The translations under genes and the position numbers were made by a program. Below the pieces are notes generated by a model. That model ran no database searches, was not told the origin of the DNA, and saw nothing but the letters and a program-made list of their open reading frames with translations. Shown here piece after piece: positions 8,227 to 32,585 of a stretch of 32,697 nt of DNA (its first letter is position 1; the number at the start of each line of letters is the position of its first letter). The DNA lies in contig CAIVGK010000026.1 of assembly GCA_903905475.1 (NCBI GenBank), positions 1 to 32,697 of the forward strand, read 5' to 3'. This stretch comes from an uncultured Burkholderiales bacterium. GTDB taxonomy: Bacteria; Pseudomonadota; Gammaproteobacteria; Burkholderiales; Burkholderiaceae_C.

Positions 8227-9435
8227 TCAGGCCGCCGCCACCGACGGGCGGGCCAGACGCATGTGCGCGGCCAAGGCCGACACGATCTGGTGGATGTCGT
8301 CGTCGCTGTGCGCCGCACTCAGGCTGATGCGAACCAGACTCACGCCGGCCGGCGTCGCGGGGGGGATCATCAAGTTGGTGTAGATGCCAGCGTCGAGCAG
8401 GCTTTGCCACAACGCCTGTGCCTCTTCGCGGGTTTCGAACACGAGTGCAGCCACCGGGCCGGGGACGTCCGTTCCCAACCGGTAACCCAAGCGGGTGACT
8501 TCTGCGTACAACCGCTCGGCATGGCGCCACAGACGCGTGCGCAAATCCTGTCCTTGCAGCACCCGGCGCAGCGCCTGGTGCGTCGCCGCGATCACCGAAG
8601 GCGCGGGCGACGCGGTGAAGATGTACGGGCGGCTGACCATGCGCATCATTTCCATCTCGGCGTGGCGCCCGAGACAAAAGCCGCCGACACCGCCCAGGCT
8701 CTTCGAGAACGTGCCCACGATGAAATCCACCTCGTCGAGCAGCCCCAGGGACTCGCAAAGCCCCAGCCCTTGCTCGCCGAACACGCCGAACGAGTGCGCC
8801 TCGTCGACCAGCAGCCAGGCCCCGTGACGCCGCTTGATGTCGACGATCTCGCGCAGCGGCGCGCGGTCACCGAGCGTGCTGTAGAGGCTTTCGACCACGA
8901 TCAGCGCGCGGCTCGCGTCTTCGCCCAGCCGCGAAAGACGGCGGTCGAGGTTTTCCGGGTCGTTGTGACGGAAGCGGATCGTCGTCGCGTTGCTCAGCCG
9001 GCAGCCATCGTGGATGCAGGCGTGGCTGTCGGCGTCGATGAGCAGGTAATCGCCTTCGCCCGCCAGTGCCGAGACGGCCCCGAGGTTGGCTTGGTAACCG
9101 GTTGAGAACACGATGCACGCAGGCCATCCGAAAGCCTTGGCGAGCTCTTGCTCCAGCGCGCGGTGGCCGGCGTAGTTGCCGCTGGCCATGCGCGAGCCGG
9201 TGGTGCCGGTGCCCAGCGTCTCGATCGCCGCGATGGCGGCGGCCCGACACTCGGCGTCGTAGGTCAGGCCCAGGTAGTTGTTGGTGCCAGCGAGGATCAC
9301 CCGCCGGCCGTCGATGGTGGCCGACGTGGCCGAATGGATCGCATCCATTGGCGTGGCGATGGGCGCCACCCGGCTGTTTTCAGCCAGGCGCGTGTGGAGG
9401 GTTCGCTGCGTGGCGAACTTGTCGAGCAGGCTCAC
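8227..9435 (-). CDS. spt: Alpha-oxoamine synthase family PLP enzyme, probable serine palmitoyltransferase
   Basis: 'AGTNNYLGLT', 'DEAHSFGVFGEQGLGL', PLP-lysine motif 'GTFSKSLGGVGGF'; immediately downstream of an ACP, GTG start overlapping the ACP stop (GTGA). Confidence 0.85.
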   Translation of the reverse strand: MSLLDKFATQRTLHTRLAENSRVAPIATPMDAIHSATSATIDGRRVILAGTNNYLGLTYDAECRAAAIAAIETLGTGTTGSRMASGNYAGHRALEQELAKAFGWPACIVFSTGYQANLGAVSALAGEGDYLLIDADSHACIHDGCRLSNATTIRFRHNDPENLDRRLSRLGEDASRALIVVESLYSTLGDRAPLREIVDIKRRHGAWLLVDEAHSFGVFGEQGLGLCESLGLLDEVDFIVGTFSKSLGGVGGFCLGRHAEMEMMRMVSRPYIFTASPAPSVIAATHQALRRVLQGQDLRTRLWRHAERLYAEVTRLGYRLGTDVPGPVAALVFETREEAQALWQSLLDAGIYTNLMIPPATPAGVSLVRISLSAAHSDDDIHQIVSALAAHMRLARPSVAAA

Positions 9436-9686
9436 GAAAGGCCGCTCTTCAACTGCAAGATGCCGGCGCACAGCTCATTGATGGTTCGCGCCTGCGCCGT
9501 CGTCTCGACGGGAATGGACAGGTCGAGTCGGTCCTCGATTTCCATGATGAGGTCCATGACCTCGGCTGAATCGAGGTCGGCGGCCTGGGCCAGATCTTCA
9601 TCGCCGCCCAGGCTGGCAGCCCCGGGGCGGATGACGCCGAGGGCTTCTCGGACTGTCGATTCGATCGAATCGGCCAGGTTGCTCAT
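9432..9686 (-). CDS. Acyl carrier protein
   Basis: 'DLAQAADLDSAEVMDLIMEIEDRLDLSIPVE' matches the ACP helix II region with Ser for 4'-phosphopantetheine (DSA in place of DSL); ATG 9686 (9725 is an alternative). Confidence 0.85.
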   Translation of the reverse strand: MSNLADSIESTVREALGVIRPGAASLGGDEDLAQAADLDSAEVMDLIMEIEDRLDLSIPVETTAQARTINELCAGILQLKSGLS

Positions 9687-9721
9687 GTGGTCGTGCTCCA
9701 TGTTCGTGGCGGGGAGTGAAC

Positions 9722-11587
9722 TCACGATGCCGCGCGCTCGACTTCAGCCGGGGCGCACGAGCCGCCGTCAGGCAGCCGTCCGTGCGGTTCCTCGGCCAAG
9801 GCGCTGCTGCGACGCTCGAGGAATTCCTTGCGCGCGGTGCTGCGCGACAGCTTGCCCGAGGAGGTTCGGGGCAGGGTGTGCGGTGGCACCAGCTCGATCA
9901 GGCAATGGATGCCGAACTCGGCATGAATCGCCTGCTGCAGCCGTTCGGTCAGCTTGACGAGCTTGAGGGGATCGGGTTCTCGGCACTGCACCACGAGCAC
10001 GGCGACCTCGTCTTCATCCTCGTCAGGGATCGAGAACGCGGAAGCGTCGGTGGGACGGACCTCGGGTTGCTGCTCGGCCAGGTACTCGAGATCCTGCGGC
10101 CACATGTTGCGGCCCTTGATGATCATCAGGTCCTTGGCGCGGCCGGTGATGTGCAGCGAACCGTCGGCCAGATAGCCGATGTCGCCGGTGTCGAGCCAGC
10201 CGTCGGCCGAGAGCACCTCGAGCGACGCCTCGGCGTTGCCGAAGTAGCCCGACATGACGCTCGGCCCATGCAGGTGAATGCGCCCGCAGCGACGCTCGGG
10301 CATCAATTCGCCCTGATCACCGCGGATTTCCAGTTGGTAGCCGGGCAGGGGCTGACCACAGTCGATGAATGCCTTGCCCTTGATCGTCGTGTCGCCCTGC
10401 GGTACGGCGATGGCCTCGCCATCGCGTGCCAGGCGGTCCATGTCGACGACGTCACTGCGCGCGCCACGTTCGAGCGGCGCAAAGCTGACCGCGAGCGAGC
10501 ATTCAGCCATGCCGTAGCACGGCAGGAAGGCACGGTCATCGAACCCGGCCGAGGCCACCGCAGCGGCGAATTCCTGCAGCGATTCGGGGTGGATCATTTC
10601 GGCGCCGATGCCGGCCACGCGCCAGGCCGACAAGTCGAGTTCCTGGGTGTCCGAAGCTCGCAGGCGACGCGCGCACAGGGTGTAGCCAAAAGGCGGGCTG
10701 AACGAGATCGTGCTGCGGTTCATCGACATCAGCTTGAGCCACAGGCGCGGGCGCATCGCGAAGTCGCGCGTGGGCAGGTAGTCGACCGAGCGCTGGGTGG
10801 CCACGCAGCCGAGCACGATCCCGACCAGGCCCATGTCGTGGTAGTACGGCAGCCACGAACAGAAACGGTCGGCCGGCGTCAGGCAAAAGCCGTGGTTGAA
10901 GATGGCCTTGAGGTTGGCCATGACCGCCGACTGCGTGATCATGGTGCCGCGAGGAAAGCGCGTGCTGCCTGACGTGTACTGCAGGTACGCGAGCTCGTTG
11001 GGCAACGGCCTCGGCGGCATGGCATCCGCGGGCGGCAAGGCGGAAAACTCTTCCAGCGTGCCGGCCAGCGTCAGCGGCAGCCCGGCGCTGGCCTCGCGCA
11101 GGAAGCCAACGAACTCGGGCGGTGCAAACGCCGCCACGGCCCGGCAGTCGCTCATCAACTGGCGCAAATGCCGGCTGTAGGCCTCACGCCCGCCCAGATG
11201 CACGGCAGCAGGCAGCGGCACCGGTACCAGCCCGGCGTACTGGCAGGCGTAGAACATGACCGCGAAGTCGGGATGGGTGTGAGCCACCAGCGCCAGCCGC
11301 TCGCCACGGCCCAAGGGTGCCAGGCGGCGCGCCATCTCGATCGCGCGTTCACGCAACTCGCGGTACGGCAGGGTCGCGATCAGCGCGCCCCGCCCGTCGT
11401 AGTAATTGAAGCCCGAGTCGCCGGTCGCGGCGTAATCCAGCGCGTCAGCCAGGGTCGGGAAATCCGCACTGAGCAGTGCAATGCCGCTCGCAGTGGGGGT
11501 CGGGCTGGTCAGGGAAGGTGCCGTCAAGTTCACTCGACGCGCCCCAGTCGGCCGGTTCGGCCTCGCAAATAAGCTTTCAACCCTCAC
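9722..11587 (-). CDS. Fatty acyl-AMP ligase / acyl-CoA (ACP) synthetase family
   Basis: 'LQYTSGSTRFPRGTMITQ', 'SWLPYYHDMGLVG', 'GWLDTGDIGYLADGSLHITGRAKDLMIIKGRNMWPQDLE', 'PRTSSGKLSRS'; GTG 11533 is an alternative start. Confidence 0.9.
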   Translation of the reverse strand: MRVESLFARPNRPTGARRVNLTAPSLTSPTPTASGIALLSADFPTLADALDYAATGDSGFNYYDGRGALIATLPYRELRERAIEMARRLAPLGRGERLALVAHTHPDFAVMFYACQYAGLVPVPLPAAVHLGGREAYSRHLRQLMSDCRAVAAFAPPEFVGFLREASAGLPLTLAGTLEEFSALPPADAMPPRPLPNELAYLQYTSGSTRFPRGTMITQSAVMANLKAIFNHGFCLTPADRFCSWLPYYHDMGLVGIVLGCVATQRSVDYLPTRDFAMRPRLWLKLMSMNRSTISFSPPFGYTLCARRLRASDTQELDLSAWRVAGIGAEMIHPESLQEFAAAVASAGFDDRAFLPCYGMAECSLAVSFAPLERGARSDVVDMDRLARDGEAIAVPQGDTTIKGKAFIDCGQPLPGYQLEIRGDQGELMPERRCGRIHLHGPSVMSGYFGNAEASLEVLSADGWLDTGDIGYLADGSLHITGRAKDLMIIKGRNMWPQDLEYLAEQQPEVRPTDASAFSIPDEDEDEVAVLVVQCREPDPLKLVKLTERLQQAIHAEFGIHCLIELVPPHTLPRTSSGKLSRSTARKEFLERRSSALAEEPHGRLPDGGSCAPAEVERAAS

Positions 11588-11733: not shown

Positions 11734-13704
11734 TCAGGCGCTCGTGGAGTCCAGAAAGTCGGCAAGCTGCTCCAACGTTGGATAGTCGAACAGGTCCGTC
11801 ACCTCGATGCGCTGCGGAAAATCGCGGTCGATCGCCTCGTGAATGCGCGCCAGATTCAGCGAATTGAGGTTGATCTCCAGCAAGTTGGTCTGCGGCGACA
11901 ACGGGTGACCAGACACGAAGGCCGCGCAGATGGCTTGCAGCCGGCGGGCGGTCGGCGTTCCGGTTGGCCCGTCGGACGGCTCAGCGGCGTCAGCTGAAAG
12001 CAACCCGGCGAGCTCGGCCAGGGGGCCGTCGAATTCACCCTGCTCGAACGATTCGGCCAGCGCATAGCGCTGCAGCTTGCCGCTGCTGGTCTTCGGGATG
12101 TTGCGCACCGGCACGATGTGCGACGCTTCCAGTCCGGTTTGCGCAGCGATGACGCGGCGCAGTTCCAGCACCAGCGGCACGAATTCCGCGAGCGCGCCGC
12201 GGTGCAGCACGAACATGGCCAGCGCTTCGGTGTCGTCGGTCGGACTGCGCACGCCGGCCGCGACCACGCGATTGGCCTCGATGCCCACGGTCTGCTGGGC
12301 GATGCGCTCCAGGTCGTGCGGGTAGTGGTTCTGGCCATTGACGATGATGAGGTCCTTGGCCCGCCCGGTGATGATGAGTTGCCCGTCCCACAGCAAACCG
12401 AGGTCACCGGTCTCGAACCAGCCCTCGGCCGAGCGCAGTTCGGCGGTGCGTTTGGCATCCTTGTAATAGCCCTGCGTCACGTTGTCGCCGCGGATGTGCA
12501 CATGGCCCAGCGTGCGTTCATCCAACACCGCGCCGGAGCCGTCCACGATGCGGAGCTCAACGCCGGCCACCGGCTGACCGAGCTTGACGAATTCGACGGA
12601 CCGGCCGCTGTGCGCCACGACTTCGCGCACCCGCTCACCCGCGCGCAGGCTCGCGGGGTCGAGCCGGACCGTTTCAATCGGCAGTTCGAGGCGAGGCACG
12701 CTCACCGCGAGGGTCGCTTCGGCCAGGCCGTAGACGGTGAACATGGTGTGCGGCTTCAGACCGTGCGGAGCCATGGTGCTGACGAAACGGCGGCACACAT
12801 CGGCCGAGATGGGTTCGGCACCGTTCATGATCATCCGGATGGACGACAGATCGAGACCCTGCGGTGACTTGATGGCGTACTGCCTGAGGTAGTGCTGAAA
12901 GCCGAAGTTCGGCGAGCACAGCACCGTCGAGCGCCGCTGGCTGGCCAGCTCCAGCCACAGCAAGGGCCGTCGCGCGAACAGTTCGGTGCGCATGATCGCG
13001 TGGCTCGCGCCGGCCGACAGCAAGGTCAGGTGGAAACCGATCAGGCCCATGTCGTGCGACAAGGGCATCCAGCTGAGGACCGAATCAAGGTCCGTGTAGC
13101 CCGCACCCGCGGCGAGTTGCGCGGTGTTGATGGTGAGGTTGCGGTGCGTGAGCAGCACGCCCTTGGGCTCGCCGGTCGAGCCCGACGAATACTGGATGAA
13201 CGCGATGTCATGCGGGTCAGGCTGAACCGGCTCGCCCGGCTCGCCGGCAATGTCGAGGCCGCCCACCGCCACGCAGCGTGAGCGCAGCACAGCGCCCTCG
13301 GCGCCCATCCCTTGCGCGGCCACAAAGGCATCGAAACGCTCGAGCGCCGGCGCGTCGATGCACACCGACGCCCGGTCGAGTTGGGCAAACACGCGCAGCA
13401 GCTTGCGCCAATGCTCGTCGTTGCTGCCCGGCGCCAGTGGCACCGGCACGATGCCGCCGAGCAGGCAGGCCCAGAACATCTCGAGGAAGCGCTCGTTGTC
13501 GCCGAGGTACAGGATCAAGGCGTCGCCACGGGAGATCCCGCGGCGCTGCAAGGCGCCGAGCGCGCCGAGGGCGCGCTGTCGCAGCCGCTTGAAGCTCAGC
13601 GTGCGCTGGTCCCGCTCGCCGTCGATGAAGGTGATGTGGCGATCGTCGCGTGCGTCGGCGGCCAGCATCGCGTTGAGGGTCTCGAATCGGGGCATGGGTG
13701 TCAT
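11734..13704 (-). CDS. Fatty acyl-AMP ligase with C-terminal carrier (ACP/PCP) domain
   Basis: 'IQYSSGSTGEPKGVLLTH', 'SWMPLSHDMGLIGFHL', 'TGDLGLLWDGQLIITGRAKDLIIVNGQNHYPHDLE', 'PKTSSGKLQR'; C-terminus 'LLEINLNSLNLARIHEAIDRDFPQRIEVTDLFDYPTLEQLADFL' is a carrier domain with NSL. Confidence 0.9.
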   Translation of the reverse strand: MTPMPRFETLNAMLAADARDDRHITFIDGERDQRTLSFKRLRQRALGALGALQRRGISRGDALILYLGDNERFLEMFWACLLGGIVPVPLAPGSNDEHWRKLLRVFAQLDRASVCIDAPALERFDAFVAAQGMGAEGAVLRSRCVAVGGLDIAGEPGEPVQPDPHDIAFIQYSSGSTGEPKGVLLTHRNLTINTAQLAAGAGYTDLDSVLSWMPLSHDMGLIGFHLTLLSAGASHAIMRTELFARRPLLWLELASQRRSTVLCSPNFGFQHYLRQYAIKSPQGLDLSSIRMIMNGAEPISADVCRRFVSTMAPHGLKPHTMFTVYGLAEATLAVSVPRLELPIETVRLDPASLRAGERVREVVAHSGRSVEFVKLGQPVAGVELRIVDGSGAVLDERTLGHVHIRGDNVTQGYYKDAKRTAELRSAEGWFETGDLGLLWDGQLIITGRAKDLIIVNGQNHYPHDLERIAQQTVGIEANRVVAAGVRSPTDDTEALAMFVLHRGALAEFVPLVLELRRVIAAQTGLEASHIVPVRNIPKTSSGKLQRYALAESFEQGEFDGPLAELAGLLSADAAEPSDGPTGTPTARRLQAICAAFVSGHPLSPQTNLLEINLNSLNLARIHEAIDRDFPQRIEVTDLFDYPTLEQLADFLDSTSA

Positions 13705-13707
13705 TTT

Positions 13708-15000
13708 TCAGCGCGCCACAAGGCGCATGTGAACGTCCTGTCGGGTGCGCAGGTTGATCTGGAACTCGGCTTGCGGCGGCGCGCTGCCCGCATATCGCAG
13801 CTGGAAGCGTTGCGCCACCATGCTCAGGTGCATCGTCATCTCGGCCATCGAGAAGGTGGTACCGATGCAAAACCGGGGGCCCGCCGAAAACGGCAAGTAG
13901 GCAAACCGGTCCCGAGCTTCCACCGCCGCCGGTGCGAAACGCTCGGGATCGAAGGCCTCGGGCCGATCCCAGTGCGCCTCGTGCCGGTGCAGCAGGTAAG
14001 GGCAGATGAAGACCTCGGTGCCGGCCGCCACATGGAAGCCGCCCAACTGGTCGTCGCCCAGGGCGCGCCGGCTGAGCAGCCAGCCTGCGGGGTACAGGCG
14101 CATGGATTCCTGCAACACCTGCTCGACGTAGGCGCATTCCGCGGGCGGCTCGTTCGCCTGGGCGGGCCTCGCCTCGGCGATGGCCGCGTGCAGGCGCGCT
14201 TCGACATCGGGGTTTTGCGACAGCAAATACCAAGTCCAGTTGAGCGTGCTGGCCGTGGTTTCGTGACCGGCAACGATCAAGGTCATGATCTCGTCGACCA
14301 AGGCGCGCTCGGGCATGGCCTCGCCGCTGTCCTTGTCGCGCGCTCCCATCAGCGTGGACAGCAAGTCCATCTCGACGCGCTGCTCGGTGCGGCGCGACTC
14401 GATCATCGCGCGCACCACATGCGTCAGCGAGCGGAACTTCGCAGCGAACGCCAGATCACGCCGGGTTTCCCGCGTCAGCAGGTCGAATGGGCTCGCCCCA
14501 TCGGCATCGATCAAGCGCTCGAAGTCGGTGCTGAACAAGGCGCGCAGCACGATGTTGAGCGCCAGTTCACTGAGATCGTGCGTGAGGTTGATCGGCTCGC
14601 CGCGCTCGGCTTGGGCCGTCCAGCGGTCGATGAGGTCGGCATTGGCCTGCTGCATCAGCGGTGAAAAACCACGGATCACCTGGGTCTGAAAGGCCGGTTG
14701 CACCATGCGTCGCTGCCTGGCCCAAAACTCGCCTTCGCTGGCCATCAGTCCGTTGCCGAGCAGCACGCGCACACGGTCCAGCGCCAAGCCCTTGACGTAG
14801 TTGCCGCGGTTGCCCAGCAGCACATGGCGGATGTCGTCGGTGCCGTGGATCACCACACTGTCATGACCACCGCTGATGGATGTCACGCGGCAGGTGTCGC
14901 CATGACGCTGCATCAGGTCTTGCAGCAGGGGCAGACTTTCGTCGTTGGCGTCCAGGTCGTAGCGTTGTTGCGGGCCGGGGGCCGGCGCTTGCTGAACCAT
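13708..15000 (-). CDS. Cytochrome P450
   Basis: I-helix 'AGHETTAS', K-helix 'ESMRL', heme-binding 'FSAGPRFCIG'; ATG 15000. Confidence 0.95.
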   Translation of the reverse strand: MVQQAPAPGPQQRYDLDANDESLPLLQDLMQRHGDTCRVTSISGGHDSVVIHGTDDIRHVLLGNRGNYVKGLALDRVRVLLGNGLMASEGEFWARQRRMVQPAFQTQVIRGFSPLMQQANADLIDRWTAQAERGEPINLTHDLSELALNIVLRALFSTDFERLIDADGASPFDLLTRETRRDLAFAAKFRSLTHVVRAMIESRRTEQRVEMDLLSTLMGARDKDSGEAMPERALVDEIMTLIVAGHETTASTLNWTWYLLSQNPDVEARLHAAIAEARPAQANEPPAECAYVEQVLQESMRLYPAGWLLSRRALGDDQLGGFHVAAGTEVFICPYLLHRHEAHWDRPEAFDPERFAPAAVEARDRFAYLPFSAGPRFCIGTTFSMAEMTMHLSMVAQRFQLRYAGSAPPQAEFQINLRTRQDVHMRLVAR

Positions 15001-15058: not shown

Positions 15059-15739
15059 ATGTCTGTCTCGGTCTTGATCTCATCGGAGTTCGCCGTCACC
15101 CCCTCCCTCGAGGCCCGGTGGATGGCCGATCTACCGCCGTCACGGCGCGCCGAAATCAGCCGTTGGTCCGACCCGCGAGACCGGCAGCGCTCGTTGCTCG
15201 GCAGCCGCTTGCTGGCGCTGGGACTGCATCGGCTGGGCTGCCCGGCGGAGGTGCTGGCCACGCTGCGTCACCCGCCACAGTCCCGCCCGACACTCGACCT
15301 GCCGGTCGACTTCAGCGTCTCGCATTGCGATGGACGCATCGTGTGCGCGCTGTCGACGTGCGGGCCGGTCGGTGTCGATGTCGAAGCCCTGGGCGCTCTG
15401 ATGGCACAGGACTTTCACCTGTACCTCAACGCCGCCGAACGGGTCTGGGCCGGCCGCAGCGCGCGGCGTTTTTATGCCGTGTGGACGCGCAAGGAGGCGG
15501 TGGCGAAGGCGGCTGGAAGCGGCGGGCTGCGCGACGTGGCCCGTGTCGATACGTCGCCGGCCACAGGCCTTTGCGAACTCGACGGAGGGCTGTGGCGCAC
15601 CCTGCCGGTTCCGGTCGGTCGCGGCCACGTGGCTCACCTGGCGCTGGCCGATGGGACTGGCGAAGTGACCTTGCGCCGCGTGAGTCGGCAAGCGCTTGAG
15701 CGTGGCGGCGCGCCCACCGCAGCGCCCTGTTTGCCGTGA
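15059..15739 (+). CDS. 4'-phosphopantetheinyl transferase (Sfp type)
   Basis: 'FSVSHCDGRIVCALS', 'GVDVEAL', 'WTRKEAVAKA' motifs; ATG 15059. Confidence 0.85.
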   Translation: MSVSVLISSEFAVTPSLEARWMADLPPSRRAEISRWSDPRDRQRSLLGSRLLALGLHRLGCPAEVLATLRHPPQSRPTLDLPVDFSVSHCDGRIVCALSTCGPVGVDVEALGALMAQDFHLYLNAAERVWAGRSARRFYAVWTRKEAVAKAAGSGGLRDVARVDTSPATGLCELDGGLWRTLPVPVGRGHVAHLALADGTGEVTLRRVSRQALERGGAPTAAPCLP

Positions 15740-15798
15740 AGATCTGCGCAGTCTTGTAAGCTCGCCCGCCCGAATCCCTTGACTTGAAAGTCTGCAAC

Positions 15799-16584
15799 AT
15801 GTCCACACCCCAACGCGCGCTCATCCTTGGCGCCGGCCAAGGCAGCCGCTTGCTGCCGCTGACCGAGAAGATGCCCAAGTGCCTGCTGGATCTGTGCGGG
15901 CGCAGCATGCTCGAATGGCAGCTGCGGGGTCTGGCCGACAACGGCGTGCCCGAGGTGGTGGTGGTGACGGGCTTTCATCCGGAGCTGGTCGAGGCCGAAC
16001 TGCGCCGCGTCGCACCGAGCGGGATGCGGGTTCGCACGCTCTACAACCCCTTTTACAAGCTGGCCGACAACCTGGCGAGCTGCTGGATGGCCCGCGCCGA
16101 ACTGCAGGGATCGTGCTTGATCCTCAACGGCGACACCCTGTTCGAGCCGGCGATCGCCCAGCGCTTGTTCGCCGCTCCGGCTGCGCCCATCACGGTCACC
16201 ATTGACCGCAAGGGCGACTACGACGCCGACGACATGAAAGTCGAGACCGACGGCGATCGGCTGCGCGCCATTGGCAAGACGCTCGAGGCTGAGCGTGTCA
16301 ACGGCGAGTCGATCGGCTTCCTGCGCTTCGAAGCCGACGGCGCGGCGCTGTTCGTCGAAGAACTCGAGCGCACGATGCGCACCCCGCAAGGTCCGGCGCT
16401 TTGGTACCTGTCGGCGATCAACCGTCTGGCCTCGGCCGGGGCTGACATCCGGGTGGCTTCGATCGAAGGCCTGGAGTGGGGTGAGCTCGACTACCCGGCC
16501 GATCTGGTGCAAGTTCGCGCTCTGGCCGCGAGCTGGGTCGAACGGGAGCGCGCAGCGAAGGGCGGCGCTTGCGCCACGGCCTGA
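15799..16584 (+). CDS. Nucleotidyltransferase (NTP_transferase, sugar-1-P/choline-P/inositol-P cytidylyltransferase-like)
   Basis: 'ALILGAGQGSRLLPLTEKMPKCLLDLCGRSMLEWQ', 'CLILNGDTLFEP', 'WGELDYPADL'; ATG 15799. Confidence 0.85.
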   Translation: MSTPQRALILGAGQGSRLLPLTEKMPKCLLDLCGRSMLEWQLRGLADNGVPEVVVVTGFHPELVEAELRRVAPSGMRVRTLYNPFYKLADNLASCWMARAELQGSCLILNGDTLFEPAIAQRLFAAPAAPITVTIDRKGDYDADDMKVETDGDRLRAIGKTLEAERVNGESIGFLRFEADGAALFVEELERTMRTPQGPALWYLSAINRLASAGADIRVASIEGLEWGELDYPADLVQVRALAASWVERERAAKGGACATA

Positions 16585-16642: not shown

Positions 16643-17419
16643 CTAGCGTCCCACCAGCTGCCGCACGAGATCGAGGTCTTCGGGCTTGTCGACGTCGATC
16701 GCCGCGCGCCCGTCGCTCATCTCCACGACCGCCAGCCGCGCGCCGCCGGCCAGTTCACCGAGCCGACCGAGGGCCGCCGCCAGCGTCAACTGGCCCATTT
16801 GGTAGCGCAGCGCCACGCTCCAGCCGAGTCGGCGCATCAGCTGCAGCGGGTCCTTGCGGTGGCGCTCCAGCTCGCACCACAGCTCGGCCGCGCCGGCGGC
16901 CGCCGGGCGCGACATCAGGAACAGGTTGCAGCCCGAAAAATGCCCATCGGCAAAGCGCAGCCAGGTGCGTTGGGTGTGCGGTGCGGCCGCCTGCACGACG
17001 TCTCGGCGCCCCAGCGCGACGCACACGTCCGCATCCTGCGGGCAAGCGGCCAAAAATTCGCTCAGCCAGCTCGTTTGCAGCAAGGCGTGGTCGGCGGTGG
17101 TGACCAGCAGCGGCGAGCCTTCGCTGGCCAGCGCGGCCGCCACGGTGGCGCTCGGGCCGGATGCCGGCGCCATGGTCGTCAGCGGTTTGCCGCACACCTG
17201 GGGCTGCAGTTCGGGCAGATCGGTCAGCAGCTCCGGCCGCTCGATCGCCACCACGATGCGCGCGACTTCAGGCACCGCGGCCAGCGCGCTCACCACCCGC
17301 TCGATCATCGTGCGGCCACCGACCTCGATCAGCGCCTTGTGGCTCACGCCGCCGTAAGCGGCCAGCGGGTCGCCGCTGGTGCGCGTGCCGGCCAGCACCA
17401 GCGCGGTGAGTTGCTTCAT
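16643..17419 (-). CDS. MobA-like NTP transferase domain protein
   Basis: 'TALVLAGTRTSGDPLAAYGGVSHKALIEVGGRTMIERV', 'PLLVTTADHALL', 'AAIDVDKPEDLDLVRQL'; ATG 17419. Confidence 0.8.
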   Translation of the reverse strand: MKQLTALVLAGTRTSGDPLAAYGGVSHKALIEVGGRTMIERVVSALAAVPEVARIVVAIERPELLTDLPELQPQVCGKPLTTMAPASGPSATVAAALASEGSPLLVTTADHALLQTSWLSEFLAACPQDADVCVALGRRDVVQAAAPHTQRTWLRFADGHFSGCNLFLMSRPAAAGAAELWCELERHRKDPLQLMRRLGWSVALRYQMGQLTLAAALGRLGELAGGARLAVVEMSDGRAAIDVDKPEDLDLVRQLVGR

Positions 17420-22031: not shown

Positions 22032-22042
22032 GGTGACGGGTC

Positions 22043-22510
22043 CTAGCCGGCGCAGCGCAGCCACGCCTGCCGCAGTGGCGCGAGCAGCGCATCGCTCATC
22101 GCAGGGTCCAGCGCCACGGCCGCATCGAGCGCCGGCGGGCCGGGCCAGCCGGCGTCGCGGAACTCGACGTCGCCGAACCGGCGCGAGCCCTCGTAACGCG
22201 GGATGACGTGAAAGTGCACGTCCCGGTCGACCATCATCAGCATCAGGTAGTTGATGCGCTCGCAGGCGATCACCTCCCGAAGCGTGGATTCGATGCGGCC
22301 CACCAGCTCGCGCAACTCGGCATAGCCCTGCGCGCTGACCTCGGCAAACGATGTCACCGGCTCGCGGCAGATCAACACCAGCGAGCCCAGCGCGGGTTGG
22401 CGCGCTCGCAGCAGCACGGTCCAGCAGTCGGTTTGCGCCAGGCGGGTGGCCGGGTCGCCGAACTTGGTCTCAGTTGCGTTGGCCATGCTCGGGTTCATCT
22501 GGGAAATCAC
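22043..22510 (-). CDS. HIT family protein
   Basis: 'DCWTVLLRARQPALGSLVLICREPVTSFAEVS', 'MVDRDVHFHVIPRY' (HIT motif with first His replaced by Asp). Confidence 0.8.
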   Translation of the reverse strand: MISQMNPSMANATETKFGDPATRLAQTDCWTVLLRARQPALGSLVLICREPVTSFAEVSAQGYAELRELVGRIESTLREVIACERINYLMLMMVDRDVHFHVIPRYEGSRRFGDVEFRDAGWPGPPALDAAVALDPAMSDALLAPLRQAWLRCAG

Positions 22511-23430
22511 AGCGCTCGATTATCGGCCGCGGTGCTGGGCACGCTGCGCGGCAAACACAGCTCGTAGACGGCGTCGGTCATGAAGGCGTTCGAGTCGACC
22601 GACCAGCGCCGCACCGTGACCTCGGCGCGCAGATCGCCGCCGATGCCCATCAGGCGCAGCCGATGCCAGCGCGCGCCTTGATCCTGGGGGTTGGGCAGCG
22701 CCGACGACGACGGCACGCACAGGCAGGGAATCGGCTCGCGCGGCCCGGCAATGGCGTCCAGGCGTGCGTCGCGGGCGTGCCCGTGCAGCACCAGCTCGGC
22801 ACCCGCGCGCTGGAGCACCGCGCGCAGCGCCGCGCCATCGGCCAGCGCCTTGCGCCAGCCGATGGCGCCCGCAGCGGCAGGGTGGTGGAGGAGGACGATG
22901 CGCGCGCGCCCAGCCCGGCCTTCGGCGCTCAGGACCTGCTCGAGCCGGGCGAGTTGCTGTGCGCCCAGCCGGCCGCGCGCGAGCAGCGGCGCGGTGGGCA
23001 GCGCGGAATTCAGACCGATGACCGACGCCTGGCCCACGCGGTGCACGTAGGGCCAGCCATCGCTCAAGCGCGTCCAGGGCGCCCACCGATCCAGGCCCTC
23101 GGCCGGCGGCACGTGCATCAACGCGTCGTGGTTACCAGGTACCAGGCTCACGCGCTCGGCCGGGCCGAGCCCGGCAAGCCAATCGGCGGCCTGCCGGAAC
23201 TCGCCCGGCAGCGAGAAGTTGGTGATGTCGCCCGTCAGCACGACGTGGTCGACGGCGTGGTCGCGCACATCGTGCTGGAGCGAATCGAGGATGTCGCTTC
23301 GGTGCAGCGCGCGGCGCCGGTACCACGACCACACGCTGAGCTGGCGCTTGGACAGGTGCTGAAGCAGGGACAAACGGGGTTCGAAGGGCAGGTGCAAATC
23401 GGAGATGTGCGCGAACGTCAAGTCGCTCAT
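22507..23430 (-). CDS. Calcineurin-like metallophosphoesterase
   Basis: 'FAHISDLHL', 'VVLTGDITNF', 'SLVPGNHDAL', 'LLHHP', 'LVLHGHARDA' metallophosphoesterase motifs; ATG 23430. Confidence 0.9.
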   Translation of the reverse strand: MSDLTFAHISDLHLPFEPRLSLLQHLSKRQLSVWSWYRRRALHRSDILDSLQHDVRDHAVDHVVLTGDITNFSLPGEFRQAADWLAGLGPAERVSLVPGNHDALMHVPPAEGLDRWAPWTRLSDGWPYVHRVGQASVIGLNSALPTAPLLARGRLGAQQLARLEQVLSAEGRAGRARIVLLHHPAAAGAIGWRKALADGAALRAVLQRAGAELVLHGHARDARLDAIAGPREPIPCLCVPSSSALPNPQDQGARWHRLRLMGIGGDLRAEVTVRRWSVDSNAFMTDAVYELCLPRSVPSTAADNRAL

Positions 23431-23527
23431 CGATAATGCCCGGCTGCTGTTTCGTCTTTCACGACTTGGGTATCCACCCCCGGATGATGCCAAAAAAACT
23501 TTCGCCGTCGGGCCCTGGGCGGGCTCG

Positions 23528-24652
23528 GTGAGCGCCGCTGAATCTCCCGCTCGCCTCACGGCGGGCGTCATCGTCGGCCAGTCGGCTCTGCGGGTGTGGG
23601 GCCTGACGTCTGAGCTGCGGCTGCAGCGGCAACTGGCGCGCTTTCGGGTGGTGGACGATGCGTCGGCGGCACAGCGGCGGGTGCTGCTGCGCGCCGACTG
23701 GGTCTATGACGACGCGCTGGTGCGCGGCCTGGTCGATGCGGCTGACGACGTGGCGCTCGTGGCACCTGACGGCACCGTGGTCGCGCTCGCCGTGGCGGCG
23801 ACCGTCGCCGATGCGGCAGCGCTGCTCGCCGAGCACCGCGCGCCCGCCTGTGCCCGCCAGGTCACGCCGGCGCAGCTGGCCGATGGCTACAACGATGCGC
23901 TGCGCAAGCGCGAGCCGCCGTACCTGATGCCGCTGGTGGCCGCCGATCTGCCCGCCATCGAAAAACGCATCTTTGCCGGCTCGTACAAGGGTGTGACCGA
24001 TCTGGTCACGCTGTATGTGTGGCCGAGTCCGGCGCGCTGGGTCACCCGTGTGTGCGCCAACAACGGCATCACGCCGAACCAGGTCACCTCGGCGAGCCTG
24101 CTGCTGGTGTTCGTGGCGATGGGGCTGTTCTGGACCGGCCACTACGGCTGGGGCATGGCCGCAGCCTGGGTCATGACGTTTTTGGACACGGTCGACGGCA
24201 AGCTGGCACGCGTGACGCTGCGTTCGTCGCCGTTCGGCAACTTCTTTGATCACTCGATCGACCTGATCCACCCGCCGTTCTGGTGGTGGGCCTGGATCGT
24301 CGGCCTGCCGGCGGCCGGCTTCGCCTACGAGTATTCGGCGTTGGCGCTGACGGTGATCGTGGCCGGCTATGTGCTGCAGCGCATCGAAGAAGGCATCTTC
24401 ATGGCCTGCTTCAAGATGGACATGCACGTGTGGGAGCGCTTCGACAGCCGCTTGCGCCTCATCACCGCGCGGCGCAACCCGAACCTGCTGATCCTCAACG
24501 CGTCGCTGCTCTTCGGCCGACCCGATCTGGGCATCGGCCTGGTCGCGCTGTGGACGGCCGTGTGTCTGGTGCTCCATGCGCTGCGCATCGCGCAGGCCGG
24601 GCTCGCGCGACGGCACGGCCCGCTGCGCTCGTGGCTCGCCACTCCCACGTGA
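23528..24652 (+). CDS. CDP-alcohol phosphatidyltransferase family protein with extra N-terminal domain (paralog of 18581..19789)
   Basis: 'DTVDGKLARVTLRSSPFGNFFDHSIDLIHPPFWWW' matches the CDP-AP signature; ORF open from 23405, start codon uncertain. Confidence 0.88.
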   Translation: MSAAESPARLTAGVIVGQSALRVWGLTSELRLQRQLARFRVVDDASAAQRRVLLRADWVYDDALVRGLVDAADDVALVAPDGTVVALAVAATVADAAALLAEHRAPACARQVTPAQLADGYNDALRKREPPYLMPLVAADLPAIEKRIFAGSYKGVTDLVTLYVWPSPARWVTRVCANNGITPNQVTSASLLLVFVAMGLFWTGHYGWGMAAAWVMTFLDTVDGKLARVTLRSSPFGNFFDHSIDLIHPPFWWWAWIVGLPAAGFAYEYSALALTVIVAGYVLQRIEEGIFMACFKMDMHVWERFDSRLRLITARRNPNLLILNASLLFGRPDLGIGLVALWTAVCLVLHALRIAQAGLARRHGPLRSWLATPT

Positions 24653-25584
24653 GCGATGAGCTGAAGTCCCTGATCGGCGCCGAGCTGTGCCGTGAGGTGC
24701 CGCTTGCCGTGACATCGCTCGCCAAGCAGCTCGCCGATCGTGCGGGGGGTGAGGCTGTTGCGGTGTTGTTCTACGGCTCGAACCTGCGCGATGCCCGACT
24801 GGACGGCGTGCTGGATTTCTACGTTTTGCTCGATCGTGTCGGCGCCTGGCCCGGGTCTCGCTTGGCAGCGCTCGCCAATTTGGTGCTGCCACCCAACGTC
24901 GGGTACCTTGAAGGGCAGGTTGACGAAACGACGTTGCGCGCGAAATTCGCGCTGATCAGCCTTCCGCAGTTCAGCCGCGGGGTGTCGTTCGGATCACTCG
25001 ACACCACGCTGTGGGCGCGTTTTTCACAGCCTTGCTGCATGGTCTGGGCGCGCAGCGACGCGGACCGACAAGCCGTCACCGATGCGGTCTGTCAGGCCGT
25101 CATCACCGCAGCGCGTTGGGCCGCACAACTCGGCCCCGACAGCGGCGATGCCTTGTCCTTTTGGCGCGCGCTGTTTGCCAGAACCTACGGCGCGGAGCTT
25201 CGCGTCGAGAAAGGCTCGCGCCCCAATGACATCGTGGCGCGCGATGCCGAGCGGTACTCGGGCTTGCTTGAACATGCCTGGCACGCTGCAGGGATCGCCT
25301 TTGATCGCACTGTCGACGGTTGTCTGGTGCCGGCGCTTCACCCTTCATCACGTCACAGCGCCACACGTCGCTGGCGATTGCGGCAGCGGCTGGGCAAGCT
25401 TCTGAATGGGCTTCGCTTGATCAAGGCCGCCTTTACCTTTGACCGCGCGATGGACTACGTGGTCTGGAAAGTGGAGCGACATTCAGGCGTTCGCCCCGAC
25501 ATCACGGACTGGCAACGGCGCCATCCGCTTCTGGCTGCGCCCGGCTTGTACCTTCGCCTGCGCAAGCTGAATCTTTTGCGATGA
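24649..25584 (+). CDS. Nucleotidyltransferase-fold protein, possibly Tam41-like phosphatidate cytidylyltransferase
   Basis: 'AVLFYGSNLRDARLDGVLDFYVLLDR' resembles the YGS...LDF region of Tam41; GTG start overlaps the upstream TGA stop. Confidence 0.5.
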   Translation: MSDELKSLIGAELCREVPLAVTSLAKQLADRAGGEAVAVLFYGSNLRDARLDGVLDFYVLLDRVGAWPGSRLAALANLVLPPNVGYLEGQVDETTLRAKFALISLPQFSRGVSFGSLDTTLWARFSQPCCMVWARSDADRQAVTDAVCQAVITAARWAAQLGPDSGDALSFWRALFARTYGAELRVEKGSRPNDIVARDAERYSGLLEHAWHAAGIAFDRTVDGCLVPALHPSSRHSATRRWRLRQRLGKLLNGLRLIKAAFTFDRAMDYVVWKVERHSGVRPDITDWQRRHPLLAAPGLYLRLRKLNLLR

Positions 25585-25840
25585 GGTTGTGTCGGCAGCC
25601 CCAGGCTCCAAGCGAAGATTTGGAACCGTTCAACAAGGCGCGGCTGTCACGATGAAGGCCCGATGGGGCCGAGAGCCGGGACATTGCCATCAATCGCCGA
25701 CTCGTACACTCGGTTGGCTCAAGGCAGCGGCAGGTTGTTGAGTTGTGGGTCACGAGGTTGGGAGCCCGCAGTCGACCTTTACCTTGAAGATCCTTGTCAG
25801 GGCCTCTCATCGCCAGTCCGAAACTCTTCAGTTGGAAACC

Positions 25841-27091: not shown

Positions 27092-27295
27092 TCAGCCGGC
27101 CCTGAAAAACCTCTGCAAGCCGCATTACGAATCACTTTGCGGTATGAGTATTGAAGTCGAGAGTCACTGGGAACAATGTTCCAGAATTCCGATTTATCGT
27201 GGATTCGATTCTGCACCTGTAGGCCGAGAATTCATTCGGGCTTCTGGTCTTTTCGGCGCCGACCCCTTGAGTAAATTTAAATAATAAATAAATAT

Positions 27296-28078: not shown

Positions 28079-28129
28079 CGGATTTTTAAGTCGGCGGATT
28101 CAAGTCTGAAGTGCAACACCTGACCCACC

Positions 28130-28640
28130 GGTGTCCTGCAGCAAGTTTGTGGTCGGTTCCAGTGGCGCGCCTCTCCCTTGGCGATGCACCCCACCTCGGG
28201 GGTGTGCAGGGCATAGCGCTTGTCCTGGCTGTTACGCCGATGGGTTCGGATGCGCTCGGCGCGTTCCAGCCACATCGCCAACTCGGCCAGCACCCTGGGG
28301 TTGCCGGGCTCGTTGGCCTGGCGCTACCGGCAGCCATTGCCCGGTGGCTGGCGTCGAGCTTGCCTCGCACTTCGCGCATCACCACCCCAGGGATAGCGCG
28401 CTGGCGCCGGATGGTCCCGGCCAGCCGCTTGAACTGCTTGGAGTGTGCGCAGCCACCCGCCTTGCGGCGCAGAGTTTTGCCTTTCTAGGCCGAGGTCTGC
28501 TTCAAACTGGAGCCCGCGCACTTGGCGGCGCTCACCACCTTGTGCCGTGCGGTCTCCAGCAGCCGAGGATGGCCTTGGATTGCACGGTGGAGTCGACGAC
28601 CACGCGCTCCAACTCGGCGGGCATCAGATTTTCGGATTTG
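28130..28640 (-). pseudogene. Degenerate, frameshifted IS5-family transposase remnant
   Basis: Minus-strand fragments in different frames: 'NLMPAELERVVVDSTVQSKAILG', 'LLETARHKVVSAAKCAGSSLKQT', 'KGKTLRRKAGGCAHSKQFKRLAGTIRRQRAIPGVVMREVRGKL', 'LAELAMWLERAERIRTHRRNSQDKRYALHTPEVGCIAKGEAR'; collinear with IS5-type transposases. Confidence 0.75.
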
Positions 28641-29433
28641 GATGCAGCCCAAAGAAACTACGCAGACGGTCAAGGCGTCTCAGCAGCCAAGTTTTTGCAG
28701 TGTCTTGAACGTAATAGGTGAGCATGATGGATCGCCTCACACCGTCGGCCTCGGACGTTCTCTCGGCGCTGTGCCAGCTTTCGTGCGCCTGCACGGGGAA
28801 GGCGTAGCCGCTGGCTGGCATGAACGGCATCTGCCGTGTGCGCAGCGCGGCTTCACCCGAATCGCCCTCGTGAAAGATCGTACCGATGTTCATTTGCGAG
28901 TCATCGTCGGGCAGATAGAACTGCACGGTGATGGCTTTTTTCAGCACATCGGTGTGGATGCCGATGCGGTAGCCTGGTAGATCTCGCACGATGATCGGCA
29001 CCGGATAAAAACCGAGTCGATCAATCGAGCAGCCGAACCGTGCTTCCAGCGCACGGCGAAACTTCCGCTTGAACGCGTCTTGCAGATCTTGCGACACCAG
29101 CAGTCGTGCCAGTGGCAGCCAGCGTGCGCGCACGGCGGCGGGTAGCAGCCAGATCTGTTCAGGGTAGAGATAGCGTCGCATCCGCGTGCTGCTGCCGTCC
29201 GCGCGCAGGGCATCCCGGTGGCGCAACTCATGGAAGTGCTCATCGGCCGGGATGCTCGCCAGCAGCTGCCGGTAGTACTCCGGTGGAAACAGACCGCTCA
29301 GGCACACGTGGTCGAAGGGCTGAGTCTGGAGTGCCGCCTGATCGATCCGGGCCGTGAACCCGCGGCTGTCCAGCTCAATCGGTGTGGCGGGTGGGGTGCC
29401 AACGGCCTGCTCAGGCATATTGAATGTCTCCAT
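28624..29433 (-). CDS. 2-oxoglutarate/Fe(II)-dependent oxygenase-like protein
   Basis: 'GYRIGIHTDVLKKAITVQFYLPDD' (HxD) and 'GYAFPVQAHESWHSAER' distal His; ATG 29433; C-terminus abuts the transposase remnant. Confidence 0.6.
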   Translation of the reverse strand: METFNMPEQAVGTPPATPIELDSRGFTARIDQAALQTQPFDHVCLSGLFPPEYYRQLLASIPADEHFHELRHRDALRADGSSTRMRRYLYPEQIWLLPAAVRARWLPLARLLVSQDLQDAFKRKFRRALEARFGCSIDRLGFYPVPIIVRDLPGYRIGIHTDVLKKAITVQFYLPDDDSQMNIGTIFHEGDSGEAALRTRQMPFMPASGYAFPVQAHESWHSAERTSEADGVRRSIMLTYYVQDTAKTWLLRRLDRLRSFFGLHPNPKI

Positions 29434-29453: not shown

Positions 29454-29582
29454 CAGCGGCTGCGCTTCGGTGCAGGTCAACGCCGGGGGCGTATCTTAAG
29501 GATTGTCGAACCCGACGACGGCGCAGATGCTGGGCATTGCCTTGCGCATGGGACGTCCCTCAGGGTCAGGCCTTTCATGCGC

Positions 29583-30554
29583 TCAGCGTGGCAGCCATCC
29601 GGCGGTGCGGTACCACGTGACCGCATCCGCAAAGCCTGCCTCCAGATCAAATTCGGGAGCCCACCCCGTGGGCCACACCAGTTCGGTCATCGGCACCGAC
29701 CAGTCCAGATGGCGCAGTTCACGCAATTTTTGGGAGCTGAGCATGCTCGCCGAGCCCATCAGGCGAGCGGCATCGCCGAGCAGCGCAACACAGCTCAGCA
29801 GGCCCTGCGGTGCCTGCATGAAACGTGGCGCCGGGTTGCCGACGGCGCGTGCCGCAGCGCCGAGCAGTTCGTCCCACCGGTAGCCCTCGGGATGAGCGTC
29901 AGCAGCCGACACGATCCCGCCGCTCGGACGCGCCGCCGCCAGCGCGACGATCAGACGCACCAGATCGTTCACATGGATCATCGCAATGCGCGCGTTCGAC
30001 CCGCCCAGCAGCGGCACGCGTCGCATGCGCGCCAACTGAAAGAAAAGCAGGGTTTCGCGATCGCCGGGCCCGTAGACCGCTGGAGGACGCAGCACTGTCG
30101 CGCGAGATCCCAACTCGTCGAGCACCGCGATCTCGCCGGCGCGCTTGCTGCCCGCATAGTCGGAAAGCAGCGGTTCGCGAGCCGCCAGGCTGGACACCGA
30201 GATGAAATGCGCGTCTGGAGCACACTGCCGGGCGGCCTGCGCCAGCGCCGCCGCCGCATCCCGGTTGACGCTGAAGAAGTCAGCCTGCCGTGCCGCCTTG
30301 ATGAGCCCGCCCATGTGAATCACGGCATCGGCGCCTTCGACCAGGCGCGACAGCGCGGCACCGTCGCCGAGCGAACCGGCCACGACCTCGGGCCTGAGGT
30401 TTCGCCACTGCGGCACATCGGGTTCGCGGCGCAGCAGCAAGCGGGTGCGCCAACCGGCTCGAGCCAACGCCACCACTAGATGGCGTCCGATGAAGCCTGA
30501 GGCGCCGGTCACTGCGACCAGCGGCGCTTTGTCTGAGCCCGTTTTCAAGTTCAT
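29583..30554 (-). CDS. NAD-dependent epimerase/dehydratase (SDR), candidate ceramide reductase CerR-like
   Basis: 'VAVTGASGFIGRHLVVALARAGW', 'VIHMGGLI', 'YAGSKRAGE'; genomic context with SPT, ACP and bCerS-like genes. Confidence 0.7.
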   Translation of the reverse strand: MNLKTGSDKAPLVAVTGASGFIGRHLVVALARAGWRTRLLLRREPDVPQWRNLRPEVVAGSLGDGAALSRLVEGADAVIHMGGLIKAARQADFFSVNRDAAAALAQAARQCAPDAHFISVSSLAAREPLLSDYAGSKRAGEIAVLDELGSRATVLRPPAVYGPGDRETLLFFQLARMRRVPLLGGSNARIAMIHVNDLVRLIVALAAARPSGGIVSAADAHPEGYRWDELLGAAARAVGNPAPRFMQAPQGLLSCVALLGDAARLMGSASMLSSQKLRELRHLDWSVPMTELVWPTGWAPEFDLEAGFADAVTWYRTAGWLPR

Positions 30555-31624
30555 ACCGCGAAACGGTCGCTGCCAAGCAGGCCGTGAACACGTGCCATCG
30601 TCGCCTGTCGTTCACGCGCAGCCAACTCCATTGGGTGGCCGGATGAGTTCAAGACGCCCGCCTGTTCCAGTGCCCGATGCAAGAGCCCAAGATCACGCAC
30701 CGAGGACAGCAGCCCCAGATCGACCGCCGCCTCGAAACTGCGCGCAATCAGCGATGCCGGGGCCCGCTCGGCAGCGCGTCGCCAGGCCGACGCCACACGC
30801 CAACGCCAATCGGGTCGCATTGGCAGCTCGAAAGGTGTCACCGGCCGGCCGGTGAGCACGGCTTCAGTCAGCATCGACGCGCTGTCGGCCGTGACGATGA
30901 AGCCATCGGCCTGGCTCAGCAGCGGGCGGTAGAGTTTTTCGCCGTCGCGCCAGCGCGAAACACAGGCGCTCACCTCGAGCGACTTTTCGATGATCGCCAT
31001 CGCCGCTGGCGGGGTGCGCGGGCTGTCGAGCACCCAGGCGCTGCCACCGACGTCGCGCACCCGGGCATTCACCGTGCTCGCCAGCGAGGCCGCTGCGGCG
31101 TCGCTGAGCACATGGGGCCGGCTGTTGCCACCGACCAGCACCACCGTCCAGGGGCGCGGCAATGCGGTGGCGCGGTCCGGCCACGACAGCGGCGCGGGTT
31201 CGGCAGCCACCGGCGGCAAGAACGGCATCAGGTTGACCACCACGTTGGGCCGCTCGGGCAAGGCGTATTGCGGCGTGCTGACGATCAGATCGAACCACGA
31301 CAGCGGCGCCCACGGGCGGTTGACGTGGACCAGCCGCGTGCCCCCGCGCGACTGACGCCGGATCCAACGTGCGGCCGGCACGCTCTTGCGGCCGGCAGCC
31401 AGCACCAGCTGAGGCCAAGGCGCCTCGAGAGGTTCATCGCTGCGCCAGCTCAGGTGTCTGGCGCCCAGCAGCACCGGTGCCAGCGTGGCAGCGGCATTGA
31501 ACTGCAGCTGAACCGTGCGAAACGGCAGATTCAGCGCCTGGGCGATGGCGAGCAGCTGCTGGTTGTCGCCATGCTTGGCACCCAGCAACACCCAGATCGG
31601 CGCGGCGGTCAGATCGGATGACAT
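30551..31624 (-). CDS. Mitochondrial fission ELM1 family protein (DUF1022)
   Basis: 'WVLLGAKHGDNQQLLAIAQALNLPF', 'LVLAAGRKSVPAARWIRRQS', 'FIVTADSASMLTEAVLTGRPV'; ATG 31624, ATGA overlap with the next gene. Confidence 0.8.
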   Translation of the reverse strand: MSSDLTAAPIWVLLGAKHGDNQQLLAIAQALNLPFRTVQLQFNAAATLAPVLLGARHLSWRSDEPLEAPWPQLVLAAGRKSVPAARWIRRQSRGGTRLVHVNRPWAPLSWFDLIVSTPQYALPERPNVVVNLMPFLPPVAAEPAPLSWPDRATALPRPWTVVLVGGNSRPHVLSDAAAASLASTVNARVRDVGGSAWVLDSPRTPPAAMAIIEKSLEVSACVSRWRDGEKLYRPLLSQADGFIVTADSASMLTEAVLTGRPVTPFELPMRPDWRWRVASAWRRAAERAPASLIARSFEAAVDLGLLSSVRDLGLLHRALEQAGVLNSSGHPMELAARERQATMARVHGLLGSDRFAV

Positions 31625-31670
31625 GGGCTGCGGGTGTGGGCTGGGCGGGTGTGTCGAGCACCAGCGGCCA

Positions 31671-32585
31671 TCAGGATGACCCCGGTGCCGCCAGCGCAAA
31701 CTTGCGCCAGCGCCGGTGGTGCCAGCTCCAGAATTGCGGCGACTGCAGGATCTGCCGCCCCGTCAGATCGACCAGCAAGGCGACGTCCGACTCCAGCGAT
31801 CCACCGCTCAGCCGCACGGCGGGCTGGATCTCGAACCGCCAATGGGGCGACGAGCCGGTCATGACCAGCGGCAGCACCGGCGCTCGCGAGGAGCGGGCGA
31901 GTTGCGCGGGGCCGGCGGGCATGGGCACGTCCTTGCCCATGAAGCGTTGAACCAGACCGTCCTTGGCGCGCTTCACGCCCTGATCGAGCATCACCTGAAC
32001 GACACGGCCCTGCTTCAATGCCGAGAGCATCTGGCCGTAGGCCTGGATGCCGGCATTCGCCAGGATGCCCTGGACGCCGTACTGCTCTAGCCCGCTTTGA
32101 AAAAATTCGTCCGACATCATCCGGGCATCGCGGTAGACCACGCTCACCGGCCAGCCGGCCGCGGTCAGCCGCACGGTGGCCAGCGCCACGTTGCCCATGT
32201 GGGTGGCCAGCAGGATCGCGCCGCGCCCTTCGGTCATCGCTGCGCGCAGGTTCTCGAGGCCGTCGATCTCGCAGCGGGCCACGAGTTCGGCTTCGCTTTG
32301 GCGGCGGTCCAGCAGCGACATGATCTCCAGCACCGCGCCGTTGTTCACCCGGTACGACTCGCGCAGCAGCGCCGGCACCGACGGGTCATCCTGGGCGCGG
32401 CCCAGCGCGACCGCCACATCGGCTTGCAGGCGACGCCGCGTGCGGCCGTCAAAGAAGAACTGCAACTCGCCCAGCCAGCTGCCAAAGGTGTAAGCCCGCG
32501 AGAACCCCAGCATGCGCAAGAAGGTGCGCACGACGAGGAACGTCAGGCGACGCCGCCCCCGCTTGATCGATGCCGGAAATCCCAT
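31671..32585 (-). CDS. Lysophospholipid acyltransferase family (LpxL/HtrB-like)
   Basis: 'AILLATHMGNVALATVRLTAAGWPVSVVYRD', 'VQVMLDQGVKRAKDGLVQRFMGKDVPMPAGPAQLARSSRAPVLPLV'. Confidence 0.8.
   Translation of the reverse strand: MGFPASIKRGRRRLTFLVVRTFLRMLGFSRAYTFGSWLGELQFFFDGRTRRRLQADVAVALGRAQDDPSVPALLRESYRVNNGAVLEIMSLLDRRQSEAELVARCEIDGLENLRAAMTEGRGAILLATHMGNVALATVRLTAAGWPVSVVYRDARMMSDEFFQSGLEQYGVQGILANAGIQAYGQMLSALKQGRVVQVMLDQGVKRAKDGLVQRFMGKDVPMPAGPAQLARSSRAPVLPLVMTGSSPHWRFEIQPAVRLSGGSLESDVALLVDLTGRQILQSPQFWSWHHRRWRKFALAAPGSS

Follow-up and report, generated by a model that had tools for sequence, protein, structure and literature searches.

What kind of lipid does a bacterium make when its ceramide genes share a locus with a cytochrome P450, an acyl-activating ligase and two phosphotransferases? 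This question is raised by a 32,697-nucleotide stretch of DNA from an uncultured Burkholderiales bacterium (assembly GCA_903905475.1, contig CAIVGK010000026.1; hereafter the window), which is one contig (C26) of a 2.86-Mb genome, 97% complete. The closest relatives in the genome collection were Burkholderiales bacterium 28-67-8 and other Burkholderiales metagenome-assembled genomes (MAGs), one of them labelled Rhizobacter. A first-pass annotation had described here a near-complete locus for the synthesis, headgroup modification and export of ceramide-type sphingolipids. We assign a probability of about 0.75 to the reading that this is a locus of the Caulobacter kind for ceramide phosphoglycerates (CPG and CPG2), to which an acyl-modification cassette was added, consisting of a fatty acyl-AMP ligase fused to an acyl carrier protein (FAAL-ACP), a P450 and a phosphopantetheinyl transferase (PPTase).

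Ceramide and headgroup genes

Open reading frame (ORF) calling, Pfam and motif checks recovered every listed enzyme class as long ORFs with high third-position GC: a serine palmitoyltransferase (SPT)-like α-oxoamine synthase (AOS), an ACP, ligases, a PPTase, a GNAT protein, a short-chain dehydrogenase/reductase (SDR), CDP-alcohol phosphotransferases and nucleoside triphosphate (NTP) transferases, all at or near the places assigned to them in the first-pass annotation (Table 1). A 2-oxoglutarate-oxygenase-like protein had been overlooked. The ceramide proteins were compared with those of Escherichia coli BL21, and SPT also with curated families. The AOS enzyme scored 587 bits on the SPT equivalog NF047599 (cut-off 500), and stayed below the cut-offs of the BioF (333 bits against 426) and glycine C-acetyltransferase (280 against 460) models. 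The GNAT protein matched YghO and the SDR matched CerR, so that the protein comparisons place neither the AOS enzyme with BioF or KBL, nor the other two outside the bacterial ceramide synthase (bCerS) and ceramide reductase families, and thus support the claim of ceramide or phosphosphingolipid synthesis. The gene acpR directly precedes spt, whose GTG start at 9435 overlaps the acpR stop codon, and aasR lies nearby. When the whole genome was searched with CerR, the window SDR was the best match (136 bits, against 49 for the next). A single clearly best match was also found in 13 other members of the genus, mostly on the locus contig; among the genus members compared, only the fragmented genome G004 gave no clear match. 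The CerR-like SDR does not adjoin spt and lies 20 kb from that gene; the Hydrocarboniphaga homologue sits between aasR and acpR-spt. A genome of another genus of the same family (G089; L211, L212) carries spt, acpR, SDR, aasR and cerS genes with no headgroup block or cassette nearby.

The Caulobacter region CC_1168-CC_1152 and its CPG and CPG2 lipids have been described (PMC11324152), CpgD has been shown to make CDP-glycerate (PMC12275187), and CpgB is a ceramide kinase (PMC10331486). The gene order in two Phenylobacterium loci (L104, L105), spt, tam41, cpgB, cpt2, mpp, hit, lptF2, lptG2, cerS, ntB, ntA, fits the published Caulobacter order (PMC11324152); the CC numbers used here were assigned through this order and the domain descriptions in that paper, rather than by direct comparison with C. 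crescentus sequences. The window shares with the Caulobacter region the five ceramide genes, the CpgA, CpgC, CpgD, CC_1153 and CC_1158 homologues, LptF2, LptG2 and the CC_1157-place protein, arranged in an order that is common to Phenylobacterium and many other genomes; a candidate CpgB-like kinase is encoded nearby, outside the window. Since the order and orientation of nine to ten of the locus genes are kept across many Proteobacteria, the grouping is not due to chance. The E. coli BL21 locus yghO-aasR-cerR-acpR-spt-lptG2-lptF2 likewise has the five ceramide proteins (35-51% identity) with LptFG paralogues alongside, but has neither the CPG headgroup genes nor the cassette.

Judged by sequence and synteny, both NTP transferases, the metallophosphatase, the HIT protein, LptF2/LptG2 and the Tam41-like protein are ordinary parts of a CPG2 locus, and they follow the published Caulobacter arrangement from CC_1161 to CC_1152. 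The suggestion that a P450, HIT, LptFG paralogues and a Tam41-like protein form an undescribed combination thus fails for the last three, and stands for the P450 with its ligase-ACP and PPTase partners; the second CDP-alcohol phosphotransferase, cpt1, also stands apart. In comparison with Caulobacter, the window has gained the cassette, cpt1 (inserted between lptG2 and cerS) and the 2-oxoglutarate oxygenase, the putative cpgB counterpart lies beyond lpxL-msbA instead of between tam41 and cpt2, cerR lies away from the acpR-spt operon, and a DesA-type protein lies in the locus, whereas Caulobacter CC_0202 is encoded elsewhere. By nearly every sequence criterion applied, the ceramide kinase aside, the locus is of a known kind; what is unusual about it is the captured acyl-processing cassette, the extra phosphotransferase and the nearby oxygenases (2-oxoglutarate oxygenase and desaturase/hydroxylase). 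Four proteins of the genome exceeded the LptFG cut-off, namely the two of the locus, a lone LptF-type protein at the window start and one on contig C143. The locus had been taken to end at 32585. Its gene set is real, but it continues onto another contig of this genome, C5, which shares 141 bases with the end of the window and then encodes an MsbA-like ABC transporter, a lipid kinase of the diacylglycerol kinase (DAGK) type and a DesA-type desaturase/hydroxylase, an order that recurs in relatives.

To the CpgC orthologue, the Tam41-like protein of the locus, we applied structure prediction, aligning homologues from 32 loci and modelling them with AlphaFold2 (AF2). The top five Foldseek matches in the PDB were all Tam41 CDP-diacylglycerol synthases (E 2e-8 to 6e-7, TM-score about 0.5-0.6), and other nucleotidyltransferases appeared only from E of about 1e-4. 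A Tam41 Pfam match, obtained for six of the 32 homologues, and a profile search were both weak pointers to Tam41 as well. A previous study suggests that CpgC activates ceramide-1-phosphate with a nucleotide (PMC11324152), while a 2026 preprint calls the mechanism unidentified (PMC13228409). The modelled fold supports nucleotide activation of ceramide-1-phosphate as the probable reaction, and makes the CDP-ceramide hypothesis directly testable. As for the kinase, one DAGK_cat protein was found in the genome, on C5; in Ramlibacter, Variovorax and G391 the orthologous gene is located near the tam41-cpt2 block. With this candidate on the overlapping contig, the idea of an organism without a ceramide kinase was discarded.

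These data make it highly likely that the core ceramide/CPG pathway operates in this organism, which very probably makes a sphingolipid of the CPG/CPG2 type. As predicted from the gene identities, AasR would load a fatty acid onto AcpR, SPT would condense the AcpR-bound chain with serine, and N-acylation by CerS and reduction by CerR would yield ceramide. The CpgB-like kinase would then form ceramide-1-phosphate, which CpgC would probably convert with CTP to CDP-ceramide, CpgD would supply CDP-glycerate, and CpgA would add phosphoglycerate with the CC_1153- and CC_1158-type proteins. Export would proceed through LptF2/LptG2, and probably also through the MsbA-like transporter.

The FAAL-ACP, P450 and PPTase cassette

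The cassette lies between cpgD and aasR, and was present in all 12 inspected genus members whose contig covers this site. It was also found in Variovorax N23, G391, Ramlibacter and a Panacagrimonas MAG (Gammaproteobacteria). In Ramlibacter, in which the sphingolipid locus is split in two, the cassette remained with ntB, ntA and aasR-acpR-spt. Among 401 genomes of the family, cerS occurred in 11, and the P450 (E < 1e-100) was found in eight of these, while the remaining 390 genomes had none. The Fisher value for this co-occurrence (1e-14) does not count as independent evidence, given the common ancestry of the genomes. No P450 was found in any other cerS locus compared, within the DNA stretches examined. 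The sphingolipid-linked P450s formed a single clade with 100/100 support, and the FAAL-ACP tree, whose root is uncertain, agreed only loosely with the P450 tree, suggesting that the cassette apparently joined the sphingolipid lineage once. In two relatives (G238 and G431) the locus retains FAAL-ACP and PPTase with no P450 between them, and the ligase-ACP therefore appears to be useful without oxidation. A CYP152-type peroxygenase was considered and rejected, because the P450 has the AGHETT motif and the CypC model gave 28 bits against a cut-off of 600.

Homologues of FAAL-ACP (37-48% identity), nearly all full-length, were found in 26 of 369 sampled genomes of the Gammaproteobacteria. At 19 free-standing loci (L183-L201), a P450 was adjacent in 14, a DUF374 acyltransferase was nearby in 14, and a PPTase was nearby in nine. 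The free-standing cassette resembles that of the window in its full-length FAAL-ACP, adjacent P450 (39-52% identity) and divergent PPTase, and differs in its usual DUF374 partner and in lying outside a sphingolipid locus. Because CerS was absent from 19 of the 22 free-standing-cassette genomes checked, the cassette normally serves another purpose. Our literature searches, which most subscription journals lay beyond, found no published description of such a cassette.

This distribution, together with the free-standing orientation and PPTase-P450-FAAL order kept in the window, would suit a cassette whose product is distinct, either a small metabolite or a hydroxylated acyl chain destined for a different lipid, and which was simply inserted between cpgD and aasR. 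We regard this as unlikely, since within the family the P450 is confined to cerS genomes, the cassette remained beside spt-aasR after the division of the Ramlibacter locus, FAAL-ACP and PPTase were retained in the two relatives without a P450, and the DUF374 partner is gone. A poorer prospect is hydroxylation by the P450 of the sphingoid base or of completed ceramide, with FAAL-ACP as a second acyl supply for SPT. The P450 does adjoin the aasR-acpR-spt block in every member, and its best PDB relatives, which include fatty-acid and terpenoid hydroxylases, leave its substrate unfixed; the free-standing P450, however, adjoins FAAL-ACP mostly in genomes without CerS, an arrangement that suggests acyl-ACP or a fatty acid as the substrate. 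A BioF- or KBL-like identity for the AOS enzyme, and with it a locus that does not serve sphingolipids, is extremely improbable, for although SPT, BioF and KBL share one fold family (PF00155), the equivalog scores rule this identity out at the sequence level, and CerS, CerR, AasR and AcpR are all present alongside.

Several observations nevertheless count against the reading of a CPG2-type locus extended by an acyl-modification cassette. In most genomes the cassette works away from sphingolipid loci, so its proximity to the ceramide genes may mislead. Its association with the locus arose apparently once, and so cannot serve as independent support for a functional link. The DUF374 acyltransferase (PF04028) that usually accompanies the cassette was absent from all 15 genomes of the window genus. 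Finally, the identities of CerR (35%) and AcpR (36%) to the BL21 proteins are modest, and the CpgB-like kinase is just 23-32% identical to the kinases at the CpgB place.

The second phosphotransferase and neighbouring genes

Homologues of cpt1 formed a separate clade (100/100), found only in the cassette-carrying lineage, and genomes with Caulobacter-type loci that were searched whole, including Caulobacteraceae, had one phosphotransferase of this kind each. Four close relatives (G010, G002, L060 and L062) have no cpt1 at the corresponding site, nor do G010 and G002 carry a copy anywhere else in the genome, indicating that cpt1 is dispensable. We considered whether cpt1 could be the missing enzyme that joins glycerate to activated ceramide in Caulobacter. 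This was not supported, since Caulobacteraceae carry one phosphotransferase of the kind, and is also disfavoured by the genus members without cpt1 at its place. The simplest guess is that cpt1 contributes to an additional or modified headgroup unit.

The 2-oxoglutarate-oxygenase-like protein, found in five genus members, has a conserved HTD motif and H221; its AF2 model is weak (pLDDT 60.6), and the fold matches in Table 1 are indicative only. The lpxL-msbA-kinase-desA block, which crosses the contig end, adjoins tam41-cpt2 in the Ramlibacter and Variovorax relatives. In G391, a DUF3108 protein (L202:3301-4077, minus strand) lies between desA and tam41, and a similar ORF occurs in Ramlibacter; it is possibly a periplasmic partner for sphingolipid export.

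Table 1. Features of the sphingolipid locus in the window, ordered by position
Feature	Position	Strand	Basis
spt, serine palmitoyltransferase	8227..9435	-	NF047599; 51% to BL21 SPT; best PDB match Sphingomonas-type SPT 2x8u
acpR, specialised acyl carrier protein	9432..9686	-	PF00550; DLDSAE phosphopantetheine site; 36% to BL21 AcpR
aasR, fatty acyl-AMP ligase/acyl-AcpR synthetase	9722..11533	-	NF006624 771 bits (cut-off 600); 50% to BL21 AasR
FAAL-ACP, ligase with C-terminal ACP	11734..13704	-	PF00501 and PF00550; conserved in lineage
Cytochrome P450 monooxygenase	13708..15000	-	PF00067 253 bits; heme and AGHETT motifs
Sfp-type PPTase, divergent	15059..15739	+	PF01648; same place in relatives
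ntA, CpgD orthologue (CC_1152), phosphoglycerate cytidylyltransferase	15793..16584	+	PF00483; GxGSR...PK motif; 54-56% to Phenylobacterium orthologue; CC_1152 place
ntB, CC_1153 orthologue, MobA/CofC-like nucleotidyltransferase	16643..17419	-	PF12804; synteny
cerS, bacterial ceramide synthase (CC_1154/YghO family)	17454..18581	-	46% to BL21 YghO, full length
cpt1, second CDP-alcohol phosphotransferase, lineage-specific	18581..19801	-	PF01066; catalytic motif; own clade
lptG2, sphingolipid-export permease paralogue (CC_1155)	19786..20850	-	PF03739 216 bits; synteny
lptF2, sphingolipid-export permease paralogue (CC_1156)	20847..22052	-	PF03739 221 bits; synteny
HIT-family protein, CC_1157 place	22043..22498	-	PF01230 just below cut-off; 43-60% homologues at same place in alpha- and gammaproteobacterial CPG loci
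Metallophosphoesterase, CC_1158 place	22507..23430	-	PF00149; synteny
cpt2, CpgA orthologue (CC_1159), CDP-alcohol phosphotransferase	23405..24652	+	PF01066; groups with single phosphotransferase of Caulobacteraceae and other CPG loci
CpgC orthologue (CC_1161), candidate CTP:ceramide-1-phosphate cytidylyltransferase	24649..25584	+	AF2 pLDDT 92.9; Tam41 fold matches
2-oxoglutarate/Fe(II) oxygenase-like, putative system member	28624..29433	-	Top fold matches all 2-oxoglutarate oxygenases (PolD, E 6e-7)
cerR-like SDR	29583..30554	-	35% to BL21 CerR; 54% to Hydrocarboniphaga SDR
ELM1-family protein, putative system member	30551..31624	-	PF06258 180 bits; also near some other cerS loci
LpxL-like acyltransferase	31671..32585	-	PF03279

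The remainder of the window holds the end of an epimerase gene, an ArnD-like deformylase and the lone LptF-type permease (14-2588, plus strand), followed by a dacB-like (PBP4) remnant (5010-5440, plus strand), in which only residues 1-36 and 323-419 of the 511-residue G002 orthologue are left, indicating an internal deletion; it may represent a pseudogene or result from misassembly. The region between tam41 and the SDR (25832-28500) encodes a GT4 glycosyltransferase and a low-GC FkbM methyltransferase, is occupied by different glycosyltransferase-like genes in each relative, and may belong to lipopolysaccharide (LPS) or glycolipid decoration. A tRNA-Val called by ARAGORN (11234-11313, minus strand) lies inside the conserved aasR, had no RNA counterpart in Rfam, and was dismissed as a false positive.

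Possible product and significance

How might the cassette act on the sphingolipid? That it does so at all seems rather more probable than a role elsewhere, on the strength of its genomic context. The local PPTase would activate FAAL-ACP, which would carry a fatty acid, and the P450 would hydroxylate this chain while it is tethered. The chain may then be transferred to the sphingolipid, most likely by CerS using it as N-acyl donor, or else through the LpxL-like acyltransferase; either enzyme would take over from the DUF374 partner as acceptor enzyme. As a tentative proposal, which we hold at somewhat under even odds, the product would be a ceramide with a hydroxylated N-acyl chain. Just short of an even chance is given to the wider hypothesis that a CPG2 locus acquired the cassette on a single occasion, so that a carrier-bound hydroxyacyl or further oxidised chain enters the outer-membrane sphingolipid, and that this, together with cpt1, which would add or change a headgroup unit, yields an undescribed acyl chain and headgroup.

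CPG2 helps Caulobacter to survive in the absence of LPS, and the action of polymyxin is affected by whether the amide-linked acyl chain of this lipid is hydroxylated (PMC11324152, PMC12275187). The captured cassette and the natural relatives without the P450 offer a route to learn the product of a widespread, apparently uncharacterised FAAL-ACP/P450 module.

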